Below are positions 167 to 50,210 of a stretch of DNA of 64,000 nt, piece after piece; position 1 is the first letter of the stretch; the number at the start of each line of letters is the position of its first letter. The DNA is taken from positions 992,001 through 1,056,000 of the forward strand of contig JAFS01000001.1 of assembly GCA_000526255.1 (NCBI GenBank), given 5' to 3'. This stretch comes from Verrucomicrobia bacterium LP2A. GTDB taxonomy: Bacteria > Verrucomicrobiota > Verrucomicrobiia > Methylacidiphilales > Methylacidiphilaceae. Position numbers and translations under genes: made by a program. Under the pieces are notes generated by a model. The model ran no database searches, had not been told where the DNA came from, and worked only from the letters and a program-made list of their open reading frames with translations.

Positions 167-2581
167 ATGTCACCAAGATCCAAGACAAGGAAAAAACCCC
201 TTCCCTCTCGCACATCTGTTCTGCGGATCCTTTCCGGTTTCGCCGCCCGAATCGCCAGCCATTTCGTTCTCGCGACCGTTGGGCTGCTTGCCGCGATCCT
301 CGTCGCCGCCTTTCTCCTATTACGGTTCTCCGGAGTTCCCACGCAAATCAAAAACGTCCTCCTGGCCGAGCTGGAGGCGCGAGACATCACCATCTCCGTC
401 GGCCGCCTCTCCCTCGACCCGCTGGGCCATCTCATCGCCAGCCGAGTCGCCGTCTTTCGCAATCGGGACCGGCAAGAGGTCTGGCTCCAGATCGACCGCA
501 TCCGGCTTTCGGTCGCCTGGCTCGCCTGGTGGAAAGGCAAGCCCTGGATCAAGAACGCCTCCGTCCACAACGCCACGATCCGTCTTCCGATCACTCCGCA
601 GAGCGAGGTGGAGCTATCCCAGGTGTCCGCCCGAGTCAACTTTGTCCCGGGCGCCCTGGAAATCCTGAGTGCGAGCGCCCGCGTCCTCAATCTCGAGCTC
701 CGCCTCAAAGGGCGCATCCTCCTCAACGGATACCCCTCGCTTCCGCCCGCCACGCCCGAGCAGCGCCAGGAGACCGATCTCCTCTGGCATCGCATTCTCG
801 CCGCCGTCGACGAGATCGAAACCCAACGGCCGATCCCCGCAGAGGTCGAGCTTTCGATGGCGACCAAGGACCCTTGGGAGGCGAGCATTCACTGCCGGAT
901 TCTCTCTTCCCCGATTGCCTGGCAGCAGATTCCCCTCGGGCGTCTGACAGGAGACCTCCGGCTCGCTGGACGAATTCTCCGCCTGGAAGAGCTCAGACTC
1001 GGATTTCCCCGAGGGGAGATCTCCCTGTGGGGGGAAGCCGATCTGCCGCAACAGACGGGATTCATCGAATTTCTGAGCAACGCCGACCCGACCGTTCTCC
1101 GCCCTTCGCTTCCGGACAGTGTCGCGGCCGTCGTCCAAGAATTTCATTTCATCGATCTTCCCAGCTTGAGCGGACGGCTGACGGCCAAGTGGGGCAGCGA
1201 GCCATCCCTCCGCCTCTCAGCCGACCTCCATTGGCACCACTTCCGCTACCGGGGCCATCCCTTCGACGAGTTTTCGATCCCCCTCGCCTACGATGGCGCC
1301 AAGCTCTTCATCCCGGAAGCGAAGCTCCGTTCTCCCGGAGGCAATGTTGACGCGGAGCTGCTCTACGAGAGCGCGCCGCCCAAGCTGCGCATCAAGGCGG
1401 AATCGACGATCGACCCGACCGTTTTCCTGGGTCTGGCCGGCAACGCCGCCGACCGGTTCTTGGAATCGCTCTCCTTCCCCAAGGAGCCTCCCTGGGCCCG
1501 AGGGGAGATTACGAGCCAAAAGCCGCTGGATCCCAAGAGCTGGGAGGTGCATGGCAGCTTTTTAGCGAAGAACTGCTCTTACCGGGGAGTGGCCGTTCGC
1601 TCGATCCAGTCCGACATCGGATTCCAGGATCAGATTCTCCGGTTTTCGCACTTCGGGGCGGCCCGGCCCGAAGGAACGATCTCGGGGAACTTCGACAACG
1701 ATTTCGGCCACAAGATCGTGACCGTTCACGATCTCGCCTCCTCGGTCGACGTGATCGCCTCTGCCCCGGCTCTGGGAGACAAGTTCCCCGCCTACGTGCA
1801 ACCCTACCCCTTCGAAAAGCCGCCCCAACTCAAGGTGAATGGCGTTGTCGATCTTAACGAGGGGACCAGGAACCCGGTCAGCAACCTCCGGGTCGAGGTC
1901 CAGTCCGATTCCGTGCTCAACTATGTCCTCTTCGGACGCAACTTCCCAATCGTCTCCCCCAGGGGCAAGATCCTCCTCCGCCGCAACGAGCTCACCGTCC
2001 AGGTCGACCAGTCCTCCCTTTTCGGCGGCCCGCTTCACGGGACCTTTCAGGTCACCCTTCGCCCCCCGCACGCCCCCTGTCCCTTTCATTCGGTATTCGA
2101 TCTCGATCACGGCGATTTTCACCAGGTCATGGCGAACCTCTATCACGTCGAGAAATGCTCCGGTCCCCTGCTCTTCCATCTCGCCTTGTCCGGATTCGTC
2201 GGCAATCTTCCCTCGCTGACGGGCGATGGGGATTTCGACGTTCGCGACGGCTACATCCTCTCGATCCCGTTCCTGGGGGGCCTCTCGACCGGCATGAGCA
2301 CGGTCATCCCGGATTTTGCGATGGCCAAAGCCGATCAAGCGCGCGCCCACTTTCGCGTAGGAAGTGGGGAGATCACGACCGACCAGTTCACCATCTCGAG
2401 CGTCGCGTTCACGATCATTGGGAAGGGAAGCTACAACTTCCTTCACGATAACCTCGAAGCCGATGCCCGGGTCAACGTTCGCGGGCCGATGGGGGCCGTC
2501 TTGTTCCCGATCAGCAAGCTTTTCGAGTATCATGGCTCGGGCAAGCTCGCCGCGCCGGAATGGAAGCCGTCTAACTTTTGA
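167..2581 (+). CDS. AsmA/TamB-like envelope protein with one N-terminal membrane anchor
   Basis: An 804-residue protein with a basic N-terminus, one membrane segment at about residues 32-53, then a long beta-rich periplasmic part. The region after the anchor (ARDITISVGRLSLDPLGH) has the pattern of AsmA-family N-termini, and the last 200 residues (DGDFDVRDGYILSIPFLGGL through KGSYNFLHDNLEADARV) match the AsmA-like C-terminal domain. Family members are thought to form lipid-conducting bridges between inner and outer membrane; the role here is inferred from the family only. The ATG at 167 is the first in frame before the anchor, with no strong ribosome site. The stop is 58 bases before valS, so the two may be co-transcribed. 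Confidence 0.7.
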   Translation: MSPRSKTRKKPLPSRTSVLRILSGFAARIASHFVLATVGLLAAILVAAFLLLRFSGVPTQIKNVLLAELEARDITISVGRLSLDPLGHLIASRVAVFRNRDRQEVWLQIDRIRLSVAWLAWWKGKPWIKNASVHNATIRLPITPQSEVELSQVSARVNFVPGALEILSASARVLNLELRLKGRILLNGYPSLPPATPEQRQETDLLWHRILAAVDEIETQRPIPAEVELSMATKDPWEASIHCRILSSPIAWQQIPLGRLTGDLRLAGRILRLEELRLGFPRGEISLWGEADLPQQTGFIEFLSNADPTVLRPSLPDSVAAVVQEFHFIDLPSLSGRLTAKWGSEPSLRLSADLHWHHFRYRGHPFDEFSIPLAYDGAKLFIPEAKLRSPGGNVDAELLYESAPPKLRIKAESTIDPTVFLGLAGNAADRFLESLSFPKEPPWARGEITSQKPLDPKSWEVHGSFLAKNCSYRGVAVRSIQSDIGFQDQILRFSHFGAARPEGTISGNFDNDFGHKIVTVHDLASSVDVIASAPALGDKFPAYVQPYPFEKPPQLKVNGVVDLNEGTRNPVSNLRVEVQSDSVLNYVLFGRNFPIVSPRGKILLRRNELTVQVDQSSLFGGPLHGTFQVTLRPPHAPCPFHSVFDLDHGDFHQVMANLYHVEKCSGPLLFHLALSGFVGNLPSLTGDGDFDVRDGYILSIPFLGGLSTGMSTVIPDFAMAKADQARAHFRVGSGEITTDQFTISSVAFTIIGKGSYNFLHDNLEADARVNVRGPMGAVLFPISKLFEYHGSGKLAAPEWKPSNF

Positions 2582-2639
2582 CCGGGCGGAGAAAGCGTCC
2601 CGGCTCGCCAAAGCCCGAAGCCGGCGATATAGGAAGAAA

Positions 2640-5270
2640 ATGTCCGATCTTCCCAAAGCGTATGAGCCCCAAGCGATCGCTGAGTCGCTCTACGCTCGCT
2701 GGCTCCACGACGGAAACCATCGAGCGGATCCCGGGTCGCTCAAGCCCGCGTTCTCCCTCGTCATGCCGCCTCCCAACATCACCGGCATGCTGACTCTCGG
2801 CCACGTGCTGAATAACTCCCTCCAGGACGTCCTCGCCCGGAAGGCCCGCCTGGAGGGGCGTGAGGTTCTCTGGCTCCCCGGCACCGACCACGCGGGACTG
2901 GCTACCGAGATGGTCGTGGAGCGCTCCCTGCGCAAGCAGCGCGGCATCGGGCGCAGGGAGGCGGGCCGGGAAGAGTTCCTCCGGCTGGTCCAGGAATGGC
3001 GGGAAACCCACGGCCGCATCATCATCGAGCAGCTCAAGAAGCTTGGGAGCTCTGCGGACTGGTCGCGGGAGCGATTCACGATGGATGGGGACTACTCGCG
3101 GGCGGTTCAAAGAGTCTTCGTCGAGCTCTACCGGAAGGGGCTTATCTATCGGGGCAAACGCATGATCAACTGGTGCCCCGCATCCCTGACCGCCCTCTCC
3201 GACGAAGAAGTCCTTCCGCGGGAGGAGCAGTCGAATCTCTACTATGTCCGCTACGCGGTCGAGGGCGACCCCGGCTCCTTCCTCACCGTCGCCACGACCC
3301 GACCGGAGACCATTCCGGGAGACACGGGCATTGCAGTCCATCCGGAAGATGAGCGCTACCGGCGCTGGATTGGAGGGCGGGCCCTCCGGCCCTTCCCTCA
3401 GGGGCCGATTCCGATCGTCGCCGATGCGGCGGTCGATCCCACCTTCGGCACGGGAGCGCTCAAGATCACCCCCGCGCACGACAAGCTCGACTTCGAAATC
3501 GGCCATCGGCACGGCCTACCGATCGTCGACATCCTCCATCCGGACGGCCATCTCCACTGCCCTGCCGTTCCCGAGCTCGACGGTCTCGATCGCTTCGAAG
3601 CACGGAAAAAGGCGGCCTCGCTTCTGGAAGAAAAGGGTCTGCTCGCCAAGGTCGAGGACTACCTCCACACCGTGGGGGTGAGCGAGCGGGCCAACGTGCC
3701 GATCGAGCCCCGGCTCTCCGAGCAGTGGTTCCTCCGCTATCCGAAGCTCGAGGAAGCCCTCCGGGTCGTGCGGGAGGGCCGGATCCGATTCTTTCCGGAG
3801 CATTGGGAAAAGGTGTACGAACATTGGATCGAGAATATCCAGGACTGGTGCATCTCCCGTCAGGTCTGGTGGGGACACCGGATTCCCGTCTGGTGGAAAG
3901 AGGGCTCGCACCGATGCCAGGTGGAGTCGCCTGGCCCCGATTGGATCCAGGATCCCGACACCCTCGACACCTGGTTTTCCTCCTGGCTCTGGGCGTTCGA
4001 GACGATGGACCCCGCTACCCGGCAAAAGTTCTATCCCACCTCGGTCCTCGTGACCGGCCCCGACATCATCTTCCTCTGGGTCGCCCGCATGATCATCGCA
4101 GGACTCGAGTTCCAGCCGGGCCGGGGCCCGGGCCTGGAGGAGAACATCCCCTTTCGCGCCGTCTACTTCACCGGTCTCATCCGAGACCGCTTGGGGCGGA
4201 AGATGTCGAAATCCCTCGGCAATTCGCCGGATCCCCTCGTCCTGATCGAGAAATATGGTGCGGACGGCCTCCGCTTCGGGCTCTTGCGGATCGCCCCGCA
4301 AGGCCAGGACATCCGCTTCGACGAGAAGCAGATCGAAGAAGGGCGAAATTTCTGCAACAAGCTCTGGAATGCCTGCCGCTTTCGCATCCGCTACGCTCCA
4401 ATCTCCGCAGACGCGCATCCCTGGGAGCATCGCCTCTCTCCGTTTGCGGTGGAGATGCTGGCCGCGCTTGGCCGGACCGGAATCCGACTCGAGGAGGCCT
4501 TCGCCGCCTACGAGTTCAGTGAGGCCGCGGGGCTCCTCTACGCCTTCGTCTGGGATGACTTTTGCGCCTCCTTTCTCGAGGCGGCCAAGGTCGACCTCAC
4601 CCGGGAGGGAAGCCCGACCGCCTCGGGAACCCTCGCCGCGTTCGACTATGCACTCTCCTGGACCCTTCGGCTGCTCCACCCCTTCTGCCCCTTCGTCACC
4701 GAGGAGCTCTGGAACCGCCTCGAGCTCGGCCCCTCCACCATCCAGTTCGCCGGCTGGTTCGGCGCCGCAGAGGCGCGGGAGCTCGAGGAACGGCTAGCCG
4801 CGACGAAGGAGGCTGCTCTCCAGGCTCGGGCGATCTACCAGGCGGCCGAACGAGGCCGCCACCTCCGGTCCACCTACGGCGTCCCTTCCAACCAAAAGGT
4901 GCCCTTTCTACTCCGCGCCGACACGCCGCTAGGCGATGCCGAGAGGGCTGTCCTCGCGGCACTCGCGAGCGCGAGCGAAATCGCCGACGTCGACGGCCCA
5001 CCACCCAAGGCTCCAATGGTGCTCACCGCCGTCGGCGAGCTCTACCTCCCCTTGGAGGGCATTCTCGATCTGGAGTTGGAGCGGAAACGGTTGACCAACG
5101 AGAAGGAAAAGCTCGCCCGTAACTGGAAAGGGATCCAGGAACGGCTGCAAAATCCGGAAGTCTCCGCCCGGGTTCCCGCCGAAAAGCTCGAGGCCTGGAA
5201 AGAACAGGCGAAACAGCTCGAAAGTGCGATGCGGCGCATCGAGGATCAGCTCAGAGAGCTCTCGCAATAG
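2640..5270 (+). CDS. valS: Valyl-tRNA synthetase
   Basis: An 876-residue class Ia synthetase that charges tRNA-Val. The HIGH-type signature is at residues 49-56 (TGMLTLGH), the CP1 editing domain starts with TTRPETIPGDT, and KMSKS is at residues 521-525. The anticodon-binding domain and the ValRS C-terminal coiled coil (LELERKRLTNEKEKLARN to the end) are present, so the protein looks complete. The ATG at 2640 is preceded by AGGAAGAA and begins MSDLPKAYEP, a typical ValRS N-terminus. The same frame is open further upstream, but that part overlaps the AsmA-like gene and does not resemble ValRS. Convergent with recA, 16 bases between the stops. Confidence 0.95.
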   Translation: MSDLPKAYEPQAIAESLYARWLHDGNHRADPGSLKPAFSLVMPPPNITGMLTLGHVLNNSLQDVLARKARLEGREVLWLPGTDHAGLATEMVVERSLRKQRGIGRREAGREEFLRLVQEWRETHGRIIIEQLKKLGSSADWSRERFTMDGDYSRAVQRVFVELYRKGLIYRGKRMINWCPASLTALSDEEVLPREEQSNLYYVRYAVEGDPGSFLTVATTRPETIPGDTGIAVHPEDERYRRWIGGRALRPFPQGPIPIVADAAVDPTFGTGALKITPAHDKLDFEIGHRHGLPIVDILHPDGHLHCPAVPELDGLDRFEARKKAASLLEEKGLLAKVEDYLHTVGVSERANVPIEPRLSEQWFLRYPKLEEALRVVREGRIRFFPEHWEKVYEHWIENIQDWCISRQVWWGHRIPVWWKEGSHRCQVESPGPDWIQDPDTLDTWFSSWLWAFETMDPATRQKFYPTSVLVTGPDIIFLWVARMIIAGLEFQPGRGPGLEENIPFRAVYFTGLIRDRLGRKMSKSLGNSPDPLVLIEKYGADGLRFGLLRIAPQGQDIRFDEKQIEEGRNFCNKLWNACRFRIRYAPISADAHPWEHRLSPFAVEMLAALGRTGIRLEEAFAAYEFSEAAGLLYAFVWDDFCASFLEAAKVDLTREGSPTASGTLAAFDYALSWTLRLLHPFCPFVTEELWNRLELGPSTIQFAGWFGAAEARELEERLAATKEAALQARAIYQAAERGRHLRSTYGVPSNQKVPFLLRADTPLGDAERAVLAALASASEIADVDGPPPKAPMVLTAVGELYLPLEGILDLELERKRLTNEKEKLARNWKGIQERLQNPEVSARVPAEKLEAWKEQAKQLESAMRRIEDQLRELSQ

Positions 5271-47309: not shown

Positions 47310-47385
47310 TGCCGCGTGGTGCAATTGGTAGCACACCAGACTCTGGATCTGGGTGTTCTAGGTTCGAGTCCTAGCGCGGCAGCCA
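47310..47385 (+). tRNA. tRNA-Gln (anticodon CUG)
   Basis: All stems fold: acceptor TGCCGCG with CGCGGCA (7 bp), D stem GTGC/GCAC, anticodon stem CCAGA/TCTGG with loop CTCTGGA (anticodon CTG, reads CAG), and T stem CTAGG/CCTAG with loop TTCGAGT. Discriminator G at 47382 and an encoded CCA at 47383-47385. Confidence 0.97.
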
Positions 47386-47427
47386 GATTGCGGAAATCCG
47401 CAGTGGCAGGACTTCTTTCCCGATCGA

Positions 47428-47601
47428 TCACGAGAGCTGCGCGATGCGCCAGAAGCCTGTGGCAAGCTTCGCGAGCTTCCTCTGATGCTCCAGAAGCCGC
47501 TCAGGCGTCCACTCCTCATTCTCCTCGGCAAGCTCGCAGGTGAGCCGAAGCTTGCTCTTCTTGAGAGCCAGCCGCTTCTCGGCATAGGGCCGATTGGCCA
47601 T
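47428..47601 (-). pseudogene. C-terminal tail of a GmrSD-like DUF262/DUF1524 gene
   Basis: Fifty-seven residues, ANRPYAEKRLALKKSKLRLT then CELAEENEEW and LLEHQRKLAKLATGFWRIAQ, match the extreme C-terminus of DUF1524 (HNH) proteins such as GmrSD modification-dependent restriction enzymes. It reads on the minus strand towards the tRNA. Its N-terminal partner is 2.15 kb away at 49764-50210, beyond the mobile element, so one gene has been split and most of its middle lost. Not likely to be expressed as a working protein. Confidence 0.6.
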
Positions 47602-47623
47602 ATCCCTGTTCGGGCCTATCGAC

Positions 47624-47652
47624 TTGACACAGACCTCCACAATCCCTAGATT
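47624..47652 (+). promoter_or_regulatory. Promoter of the IS1595-like transposase gene
   Basis: TTGACA (47624-47629) and TAGATT (47647-47652), spaced by 17 bases, lie directly before the ATG at 47659; transcription would start almost at the start codon. The -35 box lies inside the left terminal repeat, as is common in small insertion sequences. Confidence 0.55.
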
Positions 47653-47658
47653 TTGATC

Positions 47659-48183
47659 ATGATCGGCACCGCCGTCACGCTCCGTGCGTTCCACGATCTC
47701 TTCCCGGACGAGGACGCCGCGCGGGCGTGGTTTGAGCGCGCCCGCTGGCCGGACGGCCCGATATGCCCGGTGTGCGGATGCGTCAACCACGCTTCCTGGC
47801 TGCGGACGATCCGCCGCTGGCAATGCACCGCCTGCCACCGACAGTTCTCGGTCACCGCTGGCACGCCGATGCACCGCACCCACCTGCCGATGCTCACCTG
47901 GGCGCAGGCCATCTACCAGATCGTCGCGTCGAGCAAGGGCATCTCCGCCGTGAAGCTCTCGGAGATGCTGGGCGTATCCTACCAGGCGGCGTGGCACCTC
48001 GGTCACCGCATCCGCGCCATGATGGCCGAGGATAGCCCATTGCTGTCCAACCTCCTCGAGATCGACAAGACCCATGCCGGAGCGCCGCCGCGCAAGCGCC
48101 CCAAGCCGGAGCGCATGGCCCTGCTCGTCCGGGGCGGCGTCGGGCGCATGCTGCCTTATCGCTTTCTCACGGGAACCGCCTGA
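47659..48183 (+). pseudogene. IS1595-family transposase, C-terminally truncated
   Basis: A 174-residue protein. It has the IS1595/ISXO2 N-terminus: LFPDEDAARAWFERARWPDG, a zinc ribbon (CPVCGC and CTAC), SVTAGTPMHRTHLPMLTWAQ and the helix-turn-helix VKLSEMLGVSYQAAWHLGHR. The DDE nuclease domain begins (EIDKTHAGAP, first catalytic Asp) but ends within its first strands, so the later catalytic Asp and the third catalytic residue are missing. It cannot be an active transposase alone. The stop codon TGA overlaps the TnpB ATG (TGATG), which implies coupled translation. Confidence 0.75.
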
Positions 48184-49745
48184 TGGCCCGCACCAAGCCC
48201 GAGCATCCGCCCGTCCATCGGACCGACCTGCTGCCGTCGAACCTGACGGCCAGCAAAGAGGCGGCGGTGCGCGCGCTGCTCAGAGCCTACCGCCGGGGCG
48301 CGGTGCTGCTGGGCCGGGAAGAGTGGCGGCTCTTCTTCGAGACGGGCCGCTTTGAGAAGAACCACGACGTGGACAAGGTCACCTTCGCCGCCGTCATCGG
48401 CGCGGCCAACCGCGTCCAGATGGCCCGCTGGCAGGTCGTCGGGCAGCTCCAGGGCTGGATCCGTAACCGGGCCAATGAGTTTCGAGACATGGTCAACCAC
48501 AGCACGCTGACACCCGCCACCAAGCAGATGCTCCACGCCATCAACGGCCTGGGCGCGTGGTTCCGGCGCGGCGAGGTGGCGAGGAGAGACACGGGCGAGG
48601 TGATTCCCGTTTCCGTGCGACGGCTGGCGCGCGCCATGATGCGCCACTGCATGGCGCGGCATCGCCGCCCGGACCTCTCGCGCATCTCCATGCGCCTCGA
48701 CCACCGCGCGGGGAGCATCTCCCGCCCCATCCAGGCGACGCAGGGCGGCAGGGTCGGCTGGTGGGTGAGCCTCTCCACGCTCGAGAAGGGGCGCAAGATC
48801 GCCATCCCGCTGCTTACCTACGACTACCATGCCAAGCGTCCTGGCCGCGTGACCAACGGCATCCAGGTGAACGAGCGCGAGGGTCGCCTGAGCTTCGGCG
48901 TGGTGACCGACATGGGCGAGGTCTGCGCCAAAAGCCGCGCCGCCTACGACGGCCACGGCGCGCTGGCGCTTGATTTTGGGCTGTCCACGCTCTTGGCCAC
49001 ATCCGACGGCCGGCTGCGCGGCCAGGGATGGCTCAAGCGGCTCAAGCGGTACGACGCGCTGCTTGCCTTGATCGCGGCCAGCCAGCAGCGTGCCGGACGC
49101 AGGCCACGCGAGAGCAAGCGGTATCGAGCGCTGGTGGAGGACGTGCGCGGCTTCCTTCGCACCGAGGTCGGCCGCGTGCTCAACCGCCTTGTCGAGCAGG
49201 GCAAGCCCAAGGAGTTGGTGCTGGAGCGGCTCGACTTCCGCCACTCCGACCTCTCAAGGCGGCTCAACGCGATCCTGCGCAACTGCGGACGCTCGATCGT
49301 CCAGGAGAAGTTGCGCGACCTGGAGGAGCGGTTCGGAATCCCCTCCGCCGAGGTCAACGCCGCATACACCTCTCAGGCATGTTCCGGTTGCGGCTATGTG
49401 GACAAGCGGAACCGCCGCGACCAGAAGACCTTCGTCTGCCTTTGGTGCGGTCACCAAATGCACGCCGACCTCAATGCGGCGGCCAACATCGAAGCGCGCC
49501 GTGCGCGCCCCAATGGTTGGCTGTTCCAGGGGAAGGCTGCGGTCCTTGCCGAGCTCGTGCGCGAGTTCGGGGAGCGACGTGTCCGGGCGCTGGGCCTGGG
49601 CAGAACCGGGAGCCGGGGTGCCCCCGCCGACCCACGATCAACCAATCCCTACTTCGGTGGAGTGCCGTCGACCGTGGTGAGGTCATCCGAACGCCGCGAG
49701 GCGTCCATGAAATCGCCCGATACTCCAGCCCTTGTGGCTGCCTGA
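48183..49745 (+). CDS. tnpB: TnpB, RNA-guided nuclease (IS200/IS605-IS607 accessory protein)
   Basis: A 520-residue protein, longer than most TnpB (about 400). The RuvC-like site is complete: Asp264 in LDFGLSTLLATS, Glu348 in LVLERLDFRHS and Asp429 in MHADLNAAANIEA. The zinc finger has Cys400 and Cys403 (CSGCGYVDKR) and Cys419 and Cys422 (CLWCGHQ). TnpB proteins use an omega-RNA from their own 3' end to cut DNA that matches the flank of the element, keeping the transposon at its site. No TnpA of the IS605 (Tyr) or IS607 (Ser) type is present; the partner here is an IS1595 fragment. The 3' end overlaps a strongly structured RNA region. Confidence 0.88.
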   Translation: MARTKPEHPPVHRTDLLPSNLTASKEAAVRALLRAYRRGAVLLGREEWRLFFETGRFEKNHDVDKVTFAAVIGAANRVQMARWQVVGQLQGWIRNRANEFRDMVNHSTLTPATKQMLHAINGLGAWFRRGEVARRDTGEVIPVSVRRLARAMMRHCMARHRRPDLSRISMRLDHRAGSISRPIQATQGGRVGWWVSLSTLEKGRKIAIPLLTYDYHAKRPGRVTNGIQVNEREGRLSFGVVTDMGEVCAKSRAAYDGHGALALDFGLSTLLATSDGRLRGQGWLKRLKRYDALLALIAASQQRAGRRPRESKRYRALVEDVRGFLRTEVGRVLNRLVEQGKPKELVLERLDFRHSDLSRRLNAILRNCGRSIVQEKLRDLEERFGIPSAEVNAAYTSQACSGCGYVDKRNRRDQKTFVCLWCGHQMHADLNAAANIEARRARPNGWLFQGKAAVLAELVREFGERRVRALGLGRTGSRGAPADPRSTNPYFGGVPSTVVRSSERREASMKSPDTPALVAA

Positions 49746-49751
49746 GTTAAC
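49610..49751 (+). ncRNA. Likely omega-RNA scaffold (reRNA) of TnpB
   Basis: Four hairpins in a row lie over the TnpB 3' coding end and just past it: CGGGG/CCCCG (49614-49626), CTAC-TTCG-GTGG with a UUCG loop (49649-49660), ACGCC-GCGA-GGCGT with a GNRA loop (49691-49704), and ACTC-CAGCC with GGCTG-GAGT (49722-49747). It ends TTAAC at 49751, beside the element end. The place and the structure match omega-RNAs of other TnpB genes. The guide would then start at about 49752 or 49764, depending on the true end. Confidence 0.55.
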
Positions 49752-49763
49752 GCGATAGTACCC

Positions 49764-50210
49764 ATCCCGATAATAGGCGTCGTTGTGCCGGTTGAGGGAA
49801 AGCTTGTTTTCCGACCGGAGCGTCACGGGGTCGAGATAGCCGATATAGGTTGCCCGCAGCTGGTCGATCCGTTTTTGGTTGGGTTCGGCATTCTTCTCTT
49901 CTGCGATCAATCTTTTGAGCCGCCGCATGGCGGCGAGCACAATGAGGCTCAGCGTCGTCAATCGTTGCTGGCCATCGATCACCTCGAAGAGGCGGTTGTT
50001 GGTCGTCTGCAGGACCAGATAACCGAGGTAATGGCCAGGCTCCCCTTCCGGAGGAGGCATTAGGGTCCCCAAGATATCTGCCCAGAGGTCTTCCCACTCA
50101 TGCTCACGCCAGGAATAGTCCCGTTGAAAACGGGGAATCCGGTAGATCAACCCGTTGCCGAGCAGTTGCCGATAGGTGCGGTTTTCCGTATTGAAGTTGG
50201 TCGCCGCCAT
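49764..50210 (-). pseudogene. N-terminal fragment of a GmrSD-like DUF262 protein
   Basis: About 149 residues of a DUF262 domain: IPRFQRDYSWREHEWEDLW, VIDGQQRLTTLSLIVLAAM (the DGQQR NTP-binding motif) and KLSLNRHNDAYYRD. It then runs into the mobile element and stops after 25 foreign residues at 49683. DUF262/DUF1524 proteins are Type IV-like restriction enzymes (GmrS/GmrD) acting on modified DNA. The rest of the gene is missing except a C-terminal tail at 47428-47601. The ATG at 50210 has GAAAG upstream. Confidence 0.7.

Follow-up and report, generated by a model that had tools for sequence, protein, structure and literature searches.

The element described here occupies positions 47611 to 49763 of a 64,000-nucleotide stretch of the Verrucomicrobia bacterium LP2A genome (the window; contig JAFS01000001.1, 992,001–1,056,000). 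It carries a shortened transposase gene of the IS1595 family (tnpA) and a complete gene for a TnpB nuclease (tnpB). Its left end, C47611, stands one base to the left of the start first proposed (47612). The tnpA reading has 176 codons (47653–48183; first ATG at 47659), and its TGA (48181–48183) overlaps the ATG of tnpB at 48183 (TGATG), in agreement with the original prediction; tnpB (48183–49745) encodes 520 amino acids. Pfam profiles detect Zn_ribbon_IS1595 (E-value 7e-13) and Cas12f1-like_TNB (E-value 8e-16); of the IS1595 domains, only the zinc-ribbon part is left in tnpA, which has lost 438 bp in frame (junction about 48107/48108). Terminal inverted repeats match at exactly 15 of 22 positions when the element starts at C47611, as had been estimated. 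The 8-bp target duplication is absent, the flanking octamers agreeing at 4/8. By its sequence, the window copy is a non-autonomous deletion derivative of a two-gene transposon. Features are as follows.

47600–47602, plus strand: ATA, an instance of RTA; it adjoins the left octamer on its 5' side and is the predicted target-adjacent motif of TnpB (RTA in 24/24 readable left ends).
47603–47610, no strand: octamer TCCCTGTT in the position of the left target duplication; right partner absent in the window copy (exact duplications in 14/21 copies).
47611–47632, plus strand: left terminal inverted repeat (15/22 against the right end; same left end in other copies).
47659–48183, plus strand: tnpA remnant with IS1595 zinc ribbon, helix-turn-helix (HTH) region, first Asp, 438-bp in-frame deletion and C-terminal end.
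48183–49745, plus strand: tnpB, 520 amino acids, start overlapping the tnpA stop; RuvC D-E-D residues D264, E348 and D429 and the four cysteines of a C4 zinc ribbon (C400, C403, C419, C422) conserved.
49558–49763, plus strand: predicted guide-RNA scaffold, from covariation, overlapping the tnpB tail.
49742–49763, minus strand: right terminal inverted repeat, in which the predicted scaffold has its 3' end.
49764–49783, plus strand: right flank, the inferred guide of the window copy (an assumed 20 nucleotides, after known TnpB guides).

Parent element and its copies in Methylacidimicrobium

The LP2A genome (G000; 2.47 Mb, 3 contigs) holds the unit in six copies with both ends and in one cut by a contig end. 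The whole tnpA region is present in four copies (2573–2593 bp), and 438 bp of it are gone from two, the window copy and C2:208839. Five copies lie in a species of the same genus (G004); two of them are long, and the other three have lost 459, 669 and 453 bp of tnpA. All five measured deletions are in frame (multiples of three), and every one preserves the reading frame that leads into tnpB. The remnants differ in length; L032 keeps only about 83 N-terminal residues, and the contig-end copy L011 has, as read by eye, a tnpA gap much like that of L032. The largest contig of G000 (C1) ends within this further tnpA-deleted copy (L011, 5631–5930); the assembly thus breaks at the element.

The full-length tnpA of L005 combines a zinc ribbon with an ISXO2-like DDE transposase and is assigned to IS1595 by PF12762 (E-value 3e-23), NF033547 (E-value 1.4e-39) and also PF12760. 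Terminal inverted repeats and 8-bp duplications, which go with this family, are found in the element, the window copy showing the repeats only. The tnpA-tnpB overlap is seen in copies of both Methylacidimicrobium species. As reconstructed from these copies, the parent is an IS1595-family DDE transposase gene overlapping a full tnpB (TGATG). The original prediction had placed TnpB inside the IS1595 element, as is borne out by multiple copies sharing both ends at different sites; it had also put TnpB in place of the catalytic domain, which does not hold: in the parent, tnpB comes after a complete tnpA, and the catalytic domain was lost by a later deletion.

All 11 Methylacidimicrobium copies have tnpB open at 520 codons with the catalytic motifs. 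Among the same 11, tnpA is internally deleted in five and frameshifted in one (L004). The ratio of nonsynonymous to synonymous polymorphism (pN/pS), taken over the same five copies, is 0.41 for tnpB versus 0.65 for tnpA. Over the 11 copies it is 0.32 for tnpB codons 1–440 versus 0.91 for the 80-codon tail, and the synonymous rate drops from 0.043 to 0.016 between the two parts. Such rates would fit a stretch held as RNA; the tail is short and they are a pointer only.

Mobility, left-hand motif and predicted guide RNA

Further copies with the same two ends at other sites, and empty sites, had been proposed as signs of mobility. Both were found, the former in the LP2A genome and the related genome, the latter for L017 and L004. 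Among 21 copies with both ends, 8-bp target duplications are exact in 14, match at 7/8 in two and at 6/8 in two, and are lacking in three (the window copy, L002, L018). The octamers of L151 match at 4/8. In G002, the contig ends L036 and L019 both carry TCTGGAAA, as if a single element had been split between them. The site of L017, a G004 copy, is uninterrupted in G000, G001, G002, G003 and G005, with one octamer and no gap. The site of L004, a G000 copy, is uninterrupted in G004 save a 2-base gap beside the octamer; in the other genomes it is alignable and more diverged. Taken together, exact duplications and empty sites indicate that the element is mobile. A mini-element of about 350 bp in G002 (L030, about 1452–1801) is reduced to the left end plus the predicted guide-RNA region at the 3' end of tnpB; it has an exact 8-bp duplication and ATA in front.

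RTA stands directly 5' of the left octamer at 22/22 ends located by script (13 ATA, 9 GTA; mean background 0.0071) and, by reading, at the left ends of L151 and L036, giving 24/24 readable left ends. Outside this count are L041 (tnpB without tnpA, left end unreadable) and L026, L033, L045 and L055 (contig without left end). The first base of the octamer is T or A in 21 of the 22 scripted ends, in which no position among the 12 bases after the right octamer exceeds 0.35 bit. As controls, 59 IS1595 loci were taken (L070–L128; L099 is the element's own TnpB-bearing copy), of which 17 with confident ends (repeat match of at least 14/20 and an exact 8-bp duplication) were kept and 42 dropped. RTA was found at the left of 0/17 of these TnpB-less relatives, ends being used as called. 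Three TnpB-less IS1595 loci (L115, L116, L118) have a two-sided context, TCA before and TGA after the 8-bp duplication. RTA occupies the place where a target-adjacent motif of TnpB belongs, and its use by TnpB is predicted. Six TnpB-less loci with confident ends (L072, L073, L077, L086, L090, L093) measure 1.8–2.5 kb, with room for other passenger genes.

In an RNA consensus built from 15 right ends there are 47 pairs, and 94.6% of cells are paired. Two-sided changes occur in 11 pairs versus 7.0 in shuffles (11 reached by 5/500), and the covariation score is 0.226 versus 0.124 in shuffles (0/500) and at most 0.084 when slid. The best covarying hairpin (49580–49588 with 49594–49602) has two-sided changes in 6/9 pairs; a second lies at 49691–49695 with 49700–49704. 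An inner segment (49712–49716) pairs with the terminal repeat (49752–49756) and co-changes with it, and another helix takes in the last bases of the element, 49758–49763. Since the helices include these last bases, the predicted scaffold extends to the boundary, which would make the flanking DNA the guide. Kinship among sequences can inflate scores of this kind; the slid control argues against kinship as the sole cause. The 3' end of tnpB therefore appears to encode a covarying RNA that reaches the last base of the element, with a predicted role as guide.

At its own site, the window copy sits between the two remaining parts of a GmrSD-type restriction gene, its C-terminal and its N-terminal piece; the middle of that gene is missing. 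Its position between the outer pieces means that a neighbouring deletion would explain the lost duplication, and such a deletion probably removed it. A tRNA-Gln gene (anticodon ctg; 47310–47385) lies just upstream of the interrupted gene. Its pieces are as follows.

47428–47610, minus strand: C-terminal piece of the interrupted GmrSD gene, left flank (PF07510 GmrSD_C, E-value 5.8e-07).
49764–50210, minus strand: N-terminal piece of the interrupted GmrSD gene, right flank (PF03235 GmrSD_N, E-value 1.3e-25).

Proposed mechanism and alternatives

The two-gene unit, its ends, duplications and empty sites, the conserved tnpB, the covarying RNA and the one-sided RTA are seen in the sequences compared. 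The element is quite probably a two-gene transposon in which the IS1595 transposase provides movement and TnpB provides retention; most likely, TnpB cleaves sites that lack the element, and the element is retained as a result. The DDE transposase would move the element and make the 8-bp duplications. The tnpB transcript would supply, from its 3' end, a guide RNA. The guide would start right after the last base of the element and so read the duplicated octamer and the DNA beyond. A site that lost the element, or an allele that was never filled, would present RTA, octamer and flank, that is, a target-adjacent motif followed by a guide match; TnpB would cut it, and repair from the filled copy would restore the element. 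The element itself would escape cutting: at the right end, ACCC (or a like end) precedes the guide match in place of RTA, and at the left end only 8 bases match the guide. In this scheme, the steps of guide production, cleavage, repair and cut-and-paste movement are modelled on known TnpB and DDE transposon biology.

Copies with deleted tnpA would be mobilised in trans. The original prediction had them moving with the help of an intact IS1595 copy, and its search for a full-length helper gene yields the four whole-region copies of the LP2A genome. Mobility and the presence of long tnpA copies in the same cell are thus upheld and help in trans is possible; an active helper transposase in that cell is possible but not certain.

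Several observations weigh against this reading. Five residues near the last catalytic region are missing in 4/5 long open tnpA copies, L003 keeping them. The curated TnpB profile NF040570 gives 82.3 bits (E-value 3.9e-23), under its cut-off of 100, and the AlphaFold2 model of TnpB (6-row alignment) has a mean predicted local distance difference test score of 39.8 and was not used. Single-sequence folding of the RNA is ordinary (z −0.62), for which reason covariation was used. An Rfam scan of 47400–49900 found no fitting family, its two matches being eukaryotic families of internal ribosome entry sites far under their gathering scores. Of the five genomes with an empty L017 site, G000 and G001 retain RTA there and three (G002, G003, G005) do not; nor is it retained at the empty L004 site in G004. 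Copies in the same genome are separate insertions, and several or many of the 24 left ends come from close kin. The 17 control relatives are distant, with 26–38% tnpA identity.

It follows from this distance that RTA could be a preference of this transposase clade, with TnpB an active or inactive passenger whose own motif need not be RTA. Every TnpB-bearing element has, or had, this tnpA clade, and none of the 385 and 387 genomes searched yielded a TnpB-less relative nearer than about 40% tnpA identity. In IS605, target recognition by the transposase and by TnpB coincide. This alternative is nevertheless judged unlikely: RTA is one-sided and bound to orientation, in contrast to the two-sided TCA/TGA of the three TnpB-less controls, tnpB is better conserved than tnpA, and the covarying RNA stops exactly at the element boundary. 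It is rather unlikely that TnpB also helps choose the target, RTA being recognised by TnpB or by a TnpA-TnpB assembly at each insertion; if true, an ancestor of Cas12 would set the target choice of a DDE transposon.

The zinc-ribbon/HTH fragment had been suggested as a new DNA-binding partner of TnpB. Deleted copies do keep the fragment in frame with the start of tnpB, an arrangement explained equally well by translational coupling; the deletions differ between copies, L032 being left with its short N-terminal part, and such a partner role is very improbable. Seen alone, with its truncated tnpA and no duplication, the window copy looks like an accident, either a deletion that joined two unrelated elements, as the original prediction allowed, or an IS1595 copy that a TnpB element had entered. 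This is hardly credible and is already refuted by the two-gene copies, which are found in several phyla. The same order and ends recur across many copies, species and phyla, tnpA and tnpB diverge together, and among IMG/VR TnpB loci an IS1595 neighbour is confined to this lineage (2/80).

Relation to known systems and distribution

The preferred reading, transposition by an IS1595 transposase with retention by TnpB, touches three known kinds of element. The IS1595 family includes passenger-bearing kinds, according to PMC8496243. The element resembles IS1595 insertion sequences in transposase domains, terminal repeats and 8-bp duplications, and is unlike them in the RTA on its left side and in its second gene, a tnpB whose 3' end resembles a guide RNA. 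It shares with the TnpB systems of IS200/IS605 and IS607 a nuclease with RuvC and zinc ribbon, a predicted scaffold running over the tnpB end to the boundary, a guide from the flank (here predicted) and a motif on the left. Unlike them, it has a DDE partner; they are marked by a Y1 or serine transposase and by the absence of repeats and duplications, whereas terminal repeats and duplications are present here. Because of the duplications, the guide would start with the duplicated octamer. PMC3627910 places Fanzor1 in DDE transposons of eukaryotes, among them IS4-type elements found in Ectocarpus and in its virus. Fanzor1 is thus likewise a TnpB relative in DDE elements with terminal repeats and duplications, but is confined in that account to eukaryotes and their viruses, whereas the host here is bacterial and the transposase IS1595; the present tree was built without Fanzor sequences. 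Literature on TnpB with IS1595, ISXO2 and RNA-guided systems, available in part (including PMC9956272 and PMC11870625), contained no bacterial DDE-TnpB pair; key TnpB surveys, ISfinder and the 2009 IS1595 paper lie outside this scope, and absence from print is unproven.

The element represents a bacterial counter-example, a TnpB with a stable DDE partner in several phyla, versus the two transposon kinds so far tied to TnpB. It suggests that any transposon whose right end can double as the end of a guide RNA can take up a TnpB nuclease, and that a target-adjacent motif can lie beyond the target duplication. It lets RNA-guided retention of a DDE transposon be tested directly, and its TnpB lineage has a predicted motif of three bases.

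Two TnpB scans gave seven loci, six of them with an IS1595 tnpA directly upstream (in one only the tnpA end, at a contig start; another is the copy of Methylacidimicrobium tartarophylax, a species of the same genus as LP2A). The seventh, in Azospirillum oryzae, is without it. The pair is found in Azospirillum, Parvibaculum, Indioceanicola, Salipiger, and metagenome-assembled genomes of Trueperaceae and Gemmatimonadota; pairs beyond those of the two scans are in Azospirillum genome G481, on Salipiger profundus pTPRO6 (44% TnpB) and, with a truncated or broken tnpA, on two plasmids of Indioceanicola profundi. The Salipiger record and one Indioceanicola record annotate tnpB only as a zinc-ribbon protein, and the second Indioceanicola record lists no gene there; zinc-ribbon-only annotation may explain why the pair was missed. 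Identities of tnpA and tnpB correlate with r = 0.955 (21 pairs of 7 elements; the window lineage represented by the L005 tnpA).

TnpB at an E-value of at most 1e-60 was present in 1/385 Alphaproteobacteria genomes, that one being the centre genome itself, and in 3/45 genomes of the genus of the centre genome, the centre included. Among 80 TnpB loci of IMG/VR, an IS1595 neighbour within 3.5 kb was found in two, both of this lineage; a third match, L168 (E-value 5e-4, zinc-ribbon part only), was rejected as noise. In the TnpB tree, the ten IS1595-linked TnpBs form one side of a weakly supported branch (38/78); with this support, a single capture is neither shown nor rejected. The next TnpBs (34–37%) have IS607 partners, in Thermus and Bifidobacterium. 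A Thermus IS607 TnpB (L065, 3474–5060) and a Thermus phage TnpB (L068, 3384–4850) carry AQVNA in place of the expected third RuvC Asp motif, ADxNA, and from this substitution may be nuclease-dead. In a Verrucomicrobiota genome (G835, L119, contig end), the zinc-finger end of a TnpB (2446–2757, minus strand) lies upstream of an IS1595 tnpA (1501–2298, minus strand), in reverse order.
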